64,000 nt of DNA from Sulfuriflexus mobilis (GTDB lineage: Bacteria > Pseudomonadota > Gammaproteobacteria > AKS1): NCBI RefSeq assembly GCF_003967195.1, contig NZ_AP018725.1, forward strand, positions 310,001 through 374,000, given 5' to 3'. The notes beneath the pieces were generated by a model that saw only the letters and a list, made by a program, of their open reading frames with translations, was not told where the DNA came from and made no database searches. Both the position numbers and the translations under genes were made by a program. Positions 2,906 through 15,588 of this stretch are shown here, piece after piece (within the stretch, counting starts at the first letter, position 1; every line of letters starts with the position of its first letter).

Positions 2906-2937
2906 GGGTGCAGATTCTGCGATTATAACGACGACGG

Positions 2938-3819
2938 ATGGCAAGCATGGTGAATGCAGCGTGGTCTGGTCTTGATTCCATGTCCGGCATGGATGATACG
3001 AATTACCAGCAGTGGAAGACGCTGCTGGAAGCACGTACAGGTATGATTTTGCCAGATGAACGTCGTTCATTTTTGACGACCAGCCTGGGTATTCGTATGC
3101 GTGAGATCGGTTTCACCGACTGTCAGGCCTACTATGATTATGTCGTGAGTGGCCGTGAGAGCGTCATGGAGTGGGCCGTTCTGGTAGATCGCCTGACCGT
3201 GCATGAAACGCGATTTTTCCGGCACATGGCCGCGATAGACATGTTGCGGGAACTGATTCTGCCGGAATGGATGTCGCAGGATGAACCGCCAAAGACCATC
3301 CAGTGCTGGAGTGTGGGTTGCGCTACCGGCGAAGAGCCCTACAGCCTGGCGATGCTGCTTGATCACTTTCAGGAAACGGATTACTGCAAATATTACTTTG
3401 GTATCACGGCGTCGGATATCAGCCTGGCCGCACTGGCAACGGGGCGTAAGGGTGTCTATCACAGTCGCAAGTTGCGTGATGTCGATGCTGTATTGCGCAA
3501 AAAATATTTCAATCGCGTCAGTGATACGCATTTTGAGGTCAATGAAGACCTGCGCAAGCGCGTCTGTTTTGCGCAGTTAAATGTTCTGGAGATGGAGCAT
3601 GCGCCAGTGGGCAAAGTGCACCTTATTTTTTGCCAGAACATGCTGATCTATTTTGATCGTAAACGACGTATTGAGATCCTGAATAGCTTGGTGCAACACC
3701 TGCATCCCGGTGGTGTATTGATCCTCGGCGCGGGTGAAATTCTCGGTTGGCAATTGCCCAGCCTCGAGAAGATAGAATTTAACGATACGCTGGCCTTTCG
3801 TCGATTAACCTCGATGTAG
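2938..3819 (+). CDS. pilK: CheR-type chemoreceptor methyltransferase PilK
   Basis: A 293-aa CheR-family SAM-dependent methyltransferase expected to methylate glutamates on PilJ. Family marks are the N-terminal helical domain, the receptor-contact stretch DRLTVHETRFFRH, the SAM-binding motif CWSVGCATGEEPYSLAM (near residues 121-137) and the late motif VHLIFCQNMLIYFD, where CheR usually has CRNVLIYF. The change from R to Q in that motif is a small oddity. Start is uncertain: an in-frame ATG nine bases downstream is equally possible, and no strong Shine-Dalgarno is visible for either. Confidence 0.88.
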   Translation: MASMVNAAWSGLDSMSGMDDTNYQQWKTLLEARTGMILPDERRSFLTTSLGIRMREIGFTDCQAYYDYVVSGRESVMEWAVLVDRLTVHETRFFRHMAAIDMLRELILPEWMSQDEPPKTIQCWSVGCATGEEPYSLAMLLDHFQETDYCKYYFGITASDISLAALATGRKGVYHSRKLRDVDAVLRKKYFNRVSDTHFEVNEDLRKRVCFAQLNVLEMEHAPVGKVHLIFCQNMLIYFDRKRRIEILNSLVQHLHPGGVLILGAGEILGWQLPSLEKIEFNDTLAFRRLTSM

Positions 3820-14269: not shown

Positions 14270-15427
14270 TTACAGACCGGCTGCCTCTTTCAAGGCGGCA
14301 GCCTTGTCGGTGCGTTCCCATGGCAGGTCGAGATCATCACGACCAAAGTGGCCATAGGCGGCCGTTTTACGGTAAATAGGTTGTAAAAGATCCAGCATTT
14401 TCACCAGACCACCGGCACGTAGGTCAAAATGCGCCGCAATTAAATCGATAATACGTTCTTCACTGATCTTACCGGTACCAAAGGTCTCAACACGTACCGA
14501 GGTAGGCTGGGCAACGCCAATAGCGTATGAGACCTGGATTTCACAGCGTTCGGCAATGCCGGCGGCAACGATATTTTTGGCCACGTAACGGGTTGCATAG
14601 GCGGCTGAACGGTCTACCTTGCTTGGGTCTTTACCGGAGAAGGCGCCACCACCATGACGGGCCATGCCGCCATAGGTATCGACGATGATCTTGCGACCAG
14701 TCAGGCCACAGTCACCGACTGGGCCACCAATCACAAAACGACCCGTAGGATTAATATGGTATTTGGTATCGGCATGCAGCCACTCCGCCGGCAGCACGGG
14801 CTTGATAACTTCTTCCATGATCGCTTCCTGCAGGGCACTCAGGCTGACCTCTTCAGTATGCTGGGTGGAGAGCACGACGGCGTCAATGGCAACAGGTTTA
14901 CCGTCTTCATAACGGAAGGTCACCTGGCTTTTGGCATCCGGGCGTAACCACGGCAATACACCTTTTTTACGCACCTCGGCCTGGCGACGTACCAGACGGT
15001 GTGAATAGGTGATCGGTGCCGGCATCAGTACGTCGGTTTCGTTACTGGCATAGCCAAACATCATGCCCTGGTCGCCGGCACCCTGTTCGTGATCTTCTGA
15101 TTCGTCTACGCCCATGGCGATGTCGGCGGATTGTTTATCAATCGATGTCAGAACCGCGCAGGACTCCCAGTCGAAGCCCATGTCTGAACTGTTATAGCCA
15201 ATTTCCTTAATCACACCGCGCGCGGTTTCGGTCATGTCGACCCAGGCGCTGGTGGTGATTTCGCCGGCGATCATGACCATACCGGTAGTGACCATGGTTT
15301 CGCAGGCGACACGTGCCTTGGTATCTTGCTCGAGAATCGCGTCGAGAATGGCGTCTGAGATCTGATCGGCGACTTTATCCGGATGGCCTTCTGAAACTGA
15401 TTCGGAGGTGAAGAGATGTTCGCTCAT
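14270..15427 (-). CDS. metK: S-adenosylmethionine synthetase
   Basis: A 385-aa methionine adenosyltransferase making SAM from methionine and ATP. Normal family length. Motifs: [19 protein letters not shown] at the N-terminus, [12 protein letters not shown], and the phosphate loop [26 protein letters not shown] ribosome-binding site lies about seven bases before the ATG. The leader contains a SAM-II-like aptamer and an intrinsic terminator, so the enzyme's product probably represses its own synthesis. ahcY follows downstream on the same strand. Confidence 0.98.
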
Positions 15428-15443: not shown

Positions 15444-15477
15444 AAAAAAACCCGCTTTAGCTGGACTAAAGCGGGTT
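15444..15477 (-). terminator. Intrinsic terminator in the metK leader
   Basis: On the minus strand a perfect 12-bp stem (AACCCGCTTTAG / CTAAAGCGGGTT, 5-base loop) runs into seven T residues, directly before the metK ribosome-binding site. Its 5' arm contains CGCTTTAG, the exact complement of CTAAAGCG at the 3' end of the upstream aptamer, so terminator and antiterminator are mutually exclusive. Confidence 0.88.
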
Positions 15478-15492
15478 CGGGAACTGGATCTC

Positions 15493-15550
15493 TTCCTCGC
15501 TTTAGCCGTATTTATTAAGCGCCCGCAATCTGAATTCAAATCGGCGCTGT
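15493..15550 (-). promoter_or_regulatory. SAM-II-like riboswitch aptamer upstream of metK
   Basis: The minus strand reads GCGC, CGAUUUG, then AUUGC, GGGCGC, UUAAUAAAU and GGCUAAAG in order. This is the SAM-II (SAM-alpha) pattern: a GCGC/GCGC first stem enclosing GAUUU and UUGC, then a U-AAUAAA linker and the 3' GCUAAA that forms the pseudoknot. Two positions differ from the common form (CGAUUU for UGAUUU, UUGCG for UUGCA). SAM-V shares this core, so the subclass is not certain. A promoter sits immediately upstream and a terminator immediately downstream. Confidence 0.8.
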
Positions 15551-15560
15551 CGTGGCAGTG

Positions 15561-15588
15561 ATTATAGGGGGATTGATAGAGAAGTCAA
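15561..15588 (-). promoter_or_regulatory. Sigma-70 promoter of metK
   Basis: On the minus strand TTGACT and a perfect TATAAT are separated by 16 bases. The predicted transcription start, about 7 bases beyond, falls just before the SAM-II-like aptamer, which is the spacing expected for a riboswitch leader. Confidence 0.8.

Follow-up and report, generated by a model that had tools for sequence, protein, structure and literature searches.

A predicted SAM-II riboswitch with a transcription terminator in the metK leader of Sulfuriflexus mobilis

Control of the SAM synthetase gene in gammaproteobacteria that lack MetJ is largely unassigned, and no MetJ (PF01340) was found in the genome of S. mobilis or in 113 relatives (114 genomes). 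A predicted SAM-sensing OFF switch on metK in this strain would fill this gap. Here, we examine the metK leader within the window, i.e., the whole 64,000-nt stretch of DNA that was analysed.

Organization of the metK leader and the aptamer class

The first-pass annotation had described a promoter (TTGACT/TATAAT), a SAM-II-type aptamer, and a terminator in this order on the minus strand, and all of these elements were located. Read from 15588 to 15428, the minus strand has the promoter first, then a SAM-II-like region followed by CTAAAGCG and a linker. Next comes CGCTTTAG as part of the hairpin 5' arm, and a run of seven T and a Shine-Dalgarno sequence then lead to the metK ATG. The features are as follows.

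15588-15583, minus strand: -35 hexamer TTGACT, read from the sequence; a TTGAC box is equally placed in the metK leaders of several relatives
15566-15561, minus strand: -10 hexamer TATAAT, 16-nt spacer from the -35 hexamer, placed as in the SAM-II leaders of Corbino 2005 (PMC1273637)
15550-15493, minus strand: SAM-II aptamer (RF00521 31.1 bits, E = 1.9e-5; model R1 78.9 bits, the sequence being part of the R1 training set)
15548-15543, minus strand: P1 5' strand AGCGCC, pairing with GGCGCU at 15523-15518; covariation at five of six pairs in 48 sequences
15523-15518, minus strand: P1 3' strand GGCGCU, from the same 48-sequence pairing analysis
15542-15536, minus strand: third strand GAUUUGA, invariant in 48 aptamers
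15534-15525, minus strand: P2 5' strand, consisting of UUC (15534-15532) and UUGC (15528-15525), from the 48-sequence pairing analysis
15506-15496, minus strand: P2 3' strand GCUAA...GAG, doubling as the putative antiterminator strand (alignment, pairing analysis, folding)
15505-15498, minus strand: CTAAAGCG, on the 3' side of the aptamer, the exact complement of CGCTTTAG
15473-15466, minus strand: CGCTTTAG, within the terminator 5' arm
15473-15464, minus strand: CGCUUUAGUC, belonging to the terminator 5' arm and the predicted antiterminator partner of 15507-15498 (complementarity, folding, leader comparison)
15477-15449, minus strand: intrinsic terminator AACCCGCTTTAG / CTAAAGCGGGTT, 12 bp with loop UCCAG, -18.9 kcal/mol (sequence, folding)
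15450-15444, minus strand: U tract of 7 nt, from the sequence
15441-15437, minus strand: Shine-Dalgarno sequence GAGGA, from the sequence, outside both aptamer and terminator
15427-14270, minus strand: metK, methionine adenosyltransferase (TIGR01034, 632 bits), with the ATG at 15427
14246-14170, minus strand: SAH riboswitch between metK and ahcY (RF01057, 49.8 bits, above the gathering score)
14162-12726, minus strand: ahcY (TIGR00936)
12660-11818, minus strand: metF (TIGR00676)

The promoter agrees with the consensus at 11 of 12 positions (one such site in the 701 nt scanned vs 0.5 expected), and transcription is expected to start at about 15554, a few nucleotides 5' of P1. The leader is followed by metK, ahcY, metF, and rsmE. 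The SAH riboswitch lies between metK and ahcY; thus, the predicted SAM switch on metK and the SAH-sensing element on ahcY would stand side by side, in series. SAH riboswitches were also present in loci L137, L111, and L097. The closest named MetK proteins were those of an uncultured gammaproteobacterium and Thiogranum (74% each). Just 5' of the metK promoter, at 15728-15672 on the minus strand, lies a REP-like palindromic dispersed repeat of about 57 bp with two hairpins; some 35 related stretches are scattered across the genome, three of them in tandem at G000:C1:2885640-2885812.

No Rfam family matched the metK leader at the gathering threshold. By E-value, RF00521 (SAM_alpha) aligned end to end with 15557-15485 in the 301 nt searched, yet its score falls below the curated database cut-off of 36 bits. 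The metK leader was the top RF00521 match of the whole 3.1-Mb genome (E = 4.6e-5), and the second-best match lay before metZ (O-succinylhomoserine sulfhydrylase), with a complement and terminator of its own. The conserved SAM-II motifs GAUUUG, UUGC, and GCUAAA were all present when the leader was aligned to RF00521 and relatives, and the genomic context was that of SAM-II: the leader of a methionine/SAM gene with the promoter just 5' of P1. Sequence, covariance models, folding, and comparison all backed the proposed SAM-II class and the metK target. As for other SAM families, SAM-II long loop (RF01726) reached 17.9 bits against a cut-off of 44 (E 0.5), and the SAM-V model (RF01826), which had also been put forward for checking, gave no match even at E<=10, so membership in either family was rejected; the SAM/SAH riboswitch (RF01727) did not match it either. 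Two weaker RF00521 matches in the same genome (L003 and L004) had no SAM-II core and were rejected as chance.

Conservation and covariation of the aptamer in relatives

RF00521 matches at E<=0.01 occurred in 49 of the 114 relatives and in none of the 14 control genomes; the SAM-II core was absent from a few of the lowest-scoring matches among the relatives. The gathering score was reached in just 13 of the 49, and the Rfam cut-off for SAM-II consequently misses most gammaproteobacterial members. An alignment of 48 aptamers, from which the model R1 was built, gave the consensus GCGCCGAUUUGA-n-UCAGCUUGCGGGCGC-nnAnAAAUnCnGCUAAAGCG. Across P1 and the P2 pseudoknot, 93.2% of cells were paired and seven pairs had changed on both sides, with 23 such cells observed vs 9.0 after shuffling; the covariation score of P1 and the pseudoknot was 0.123 vs 0.072 in shuffled alignments. 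When the 3' partners were slid out of register as a control, only 36-54% of cells paired. The P1 stem was paired in 96.5% of cells, with both-side changes at five of its six pairs, and the core of the H-type pseudoknot P2 (UUGC/GCUAA) was paired in 48/48 aptamers. The three outer pairs of P2 were paired in 76% of cells, two of them with both-side changes, and the slid controls were far lower.

These data bear on two other readings of the leader. A likeness to SAM-II arising by chance in an ordinary promoter and terminator would be in keeping with the sub-threshold Rfam score; however, the genome-wide E-value, the empty control genomes, and the second copy before metZ all oppose it, and conservation and covariation were taken to have refuted it already, so its probability is negligible. 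The same low score might instead reflect a SAM-II relative that has decayed or changed and now responds to a different ligand, e.g., SAH or a polyamine, and an RNA closely related to a different class of SAM aptamer has reportedly become a spermidine sensor (PMC10853860). We regard this as very improbable, as GAUUUGA, UUGC, and GCUAAA are all retained, the targets are metK and metZ, and the downstream ahcY has its own SAH riboswitch. SAM is the ligand predicted here.

Competing helices and the predicted mode of switching

The first-pass annotation had also pointed to the exact complementarity of CTAAAGCG and CGCTTTAG. The match is real: a 10-bp run joins the aptamer strand and the expression platform, where 6.2 bp are expected from dinucleotide shuffles (p = 0.005). 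The leader folded more stably than dinucleotide shuffles (z = -3.0), and the minimum free energy structure obtained by RNAfold contained the terminator stem, although a simple terminator scan of the sequence did not list the 15477-15449 stem. In a transcript truncated just after the terminator 5' arm, GGCUAAAGCG paired with CGCUUUAGUC as an antiterminator (-30.7 kcal/mol), and this helix was lost (-14.4 kcal/mol) when the aptamer strand was blocked to mimic the pseudoknot with SAM bound. In the full leader, the terminator fold (-38.8 kcal/mol) was favoured by about 7 kcal/mol over the fold with the antiterminator enforced (-31.9 kcal/mol). The terminator and the helix that uses the 3' strand of the aptamer are mutually exclusive in sequence and folding.

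In the proposed model, the RNA would start a few nucleotides before P1. With SAM bound, GCUAAAGCGAG would be held in the aptamer pseudoknot, leaving CGCUUUAGUC free to form the terminator, and transcription would stop before metK. Without SAM, GGCUAAAGCG would pair with CGCUUUAGUC, the terminator 3' arm would be left without a partner, and metK would be transcribed. This is the mechanism that had been proposed from the sequence at first, and covariance models, folding, and comparison with relatives likewise support it as a model. By far the likeliest reading, in which we place high confidence, is that the metK leader acts as a SAM-II OFF switch attenuating transcription; that it works in the cell is a prediction from sequence and folding.

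A CUUUAG-type complement was found downstream of 83 of 132 aptamers vs 26.0 in shuffles (11-16 for control motifs), and in the shuffle test, 29 of the 55 leaders compared had complementarity at p<=0.05. The complement lay mainly outside the terminator stem in 14 of 76 cases, so the terminator alone does not account for its retention. By eye, CGCUUUAGUCC was retained in L043 and L089 even though its end has lost its match in the terminator 3' arm, and CGCUUUUGCC was retained in the terminator loop of L226. U tracts were seen in further SAM-II metK leaders (L038, L043, L039, L089, L094, and L137). Because the aptamer strand hardly varies, covariation of the antiterminator was weak: excess pairing occurred at one flanking position only (p = 0.038), so the case for the antiterminator draws on enrichment and exclusion rather than on covariation. 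Moreover, a strict complement was present in only 6 of 19 metK leaders, and one clade (L019, L143, L222, and L270) kept the terminator with no complementary strand; thus, the exact switch is not universal.

An aptamer acting mainly on translation, with a constitutive or incidental terminator, would accommodate some of these observations. Some SAM-II riboswitches control ribosome access, the S. meliloti metA terminator is not tied to the aptamer (PMC9373788), and the gammaproteobacterial metK leaders L244 and L271 have no U tract of at least five near the aptamer. In the S. mobilis leader, however, the Shine-Dalgarno sequence is located 3' of the U tract and apart from the aptamer strand, and the terminator 5' arm is the exact complement of that strand at the significance given above. 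We consider translational control of this leader unlikely.

SAM-II targets, a betaproteobacterial metK element, and known systems

The model R1 matched 184 of 369 sampled genomes of the class. Among 132 distinct SAM-II leaders, 96 stood before metZ, 19 before metK, and 17 before other genes, including genes that read by inspection as metN, metX, and metF (the last also by a weak Pfam match). Thus, metK is a minority target of SAM-II. Tandem SAM-II arrangements were seen in L051, L070/L216, L214, and L215, and also in G248, G261, G150, and G360; a gamma-type aptamer and terminator are followed about 50 nt on by a second aptamer with GAUUUAA. Tandem SAM-II pairs are already known, and the present ones resemble the bi-mechanism tandems described (PMC9481103). 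In addition, RF02424 (Bp2_287, a Burkholderia sRNA) matched the strand opposite SAM-II leaders, at 15459-15548 (+) in the window, at 2926-3068 (+) in L137, and at G158:C56:69434-69573 (-). Since Bp2_287 was found beside metX/metZ (PMC3521395), RF02424 probably represents a SAM-II leader that was entered with its strand reversed.

A related element precedes metK in betaproteobacteria, where Leyn 2014 found no regulator for this gene (PMC4239095). A scan for AAATNNNGCTAAAG 76-106 nt upstream of metK gave at least 120 matches at no fewer than 80 loci, and most of the loci listed were betaproteobacterial. A conserved SAM-II-like pseudoknot RNA with GAGUUAA as its third strand is present in betaproteobacterial metK leaders (L093-L172, e.g., L097, L111, L116, L118, and L127; L213; and L279-L284). 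The leaders have in common CGCCGAGUUAA...GACAACUUGC...GGCG...AAAU...GCUAAAGCGUC. In 43 of the betaproteobacterial leaders, 94.5% of cells were paired and covariation was strong; one pseudoknot pair was GC in 24, AU in 14, and GU in 5 with zero failures, and one P1 pair was UA in 26, CG in 16, and AU in 1. R1, trained without these leaders, matched many of them at 35-44 bits, which marks them as homologous, and Rfam (15) detected no SAM family in 13 betaproteobacterial metK-leader loci. Among 119 relatives of G110, the model R2, built from the betaproteobacterial leaders, matched 96; these comprise 66 of the 67 genomes sampled in the genus of G110 itself and others beyond it. All seven R2 loci checked, L213 among them, lay before metK. 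An anti-Shine-Dalgarno sequence such as AACUC(C/U) faces GGAGUU, which suggests translational control of this element. It looks like an unlisted SAM-II variant, which may have been described earlier. Taken together, metK is probably a widespread, unrecorded SAM-II-type target in both classes: via terminator platforms in gammaproteobacteria, and in betaproteobacteria via a variant aptamer (GAGUUAA for GAUUUGA, with a covarying GAC/GUC or GAAC/GUUC pseudoknot) that probably masks the ribosome site, occurs in nearly all sampled genomes of one genus, and goes undetected by every Rfam 15 family.

The suggestion that the S. mobilis leader extends SAM-II to a new lineage held in part. Meyer 2009 names alpha-, beta-, and gammaproteobacteria as the groups in which SAM-II is commonest (PMC2704228), and Barrick & Breaker 2007 describe it as mostly tied to transcription terminators and seen also in gammaproteobacteria (PMC2258182), so the lineage extension is partly anticipated and the terminator form is the usual one. 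In a survey of about 200 genomes, Leyn 2014 recorded SAM_alpha only in Rhizobiales and Rhodobacterales and in no case on metK (PMC4239095), and no report of SAM-II on metK was found in the literature searched. SAM-II switches that work through a terminator are a known kind, and documentation of their use on metK and of their distribution within this group of bacteria seems sparse.

Alphaproteobacterial SAM-II, called an OFF switch, has its promoter just before P1 and its terminator after P2 (Corbino 2005, PMC1273637). The terminator-bearing SAM-II of Agrobacterium metA and Sinorhizobium metZ shares with the metK leader P1 and the H-type pseudoknot, GAUUUG/UUGC/GCUAAA, a near-consensus promoter a few nucleotides before P1, and a terminator between P2 and the ORF (PMC1273637, PMC9373788). 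Unlike these, the metK leader has a short outer P2 (3 bp) and a gamma-type consensus under the Rfam cut-off, and its target is metK instead of metA, metZ, or metX. The second copy in S. mobilis (L002) has the same aptamer consensus and complement/terminator layout before metZ, with the strand pair GCUAAAGAGG/CCUGCUUUAGC in place of GCUAAAGCG/CGCUUUAG. SAM-V (RF01826) can be superimposed almost exactly on SAM-II in its pseudoknot core and ligand site (PMC6061858) but is translational, and its model did not match here. The betaproteobacterial metXZ element (Leyn 2014, PMC4239095) likewise combines a pseudoknot, a terminator, and methionine genes, but was reported before metX/metZ only. Finally, the SAM/SAH riboswitch (RF01727) also precedes metK and senses SAM, but it is a separate RNA family reported only from Rhodobacterales (PMC2864571).
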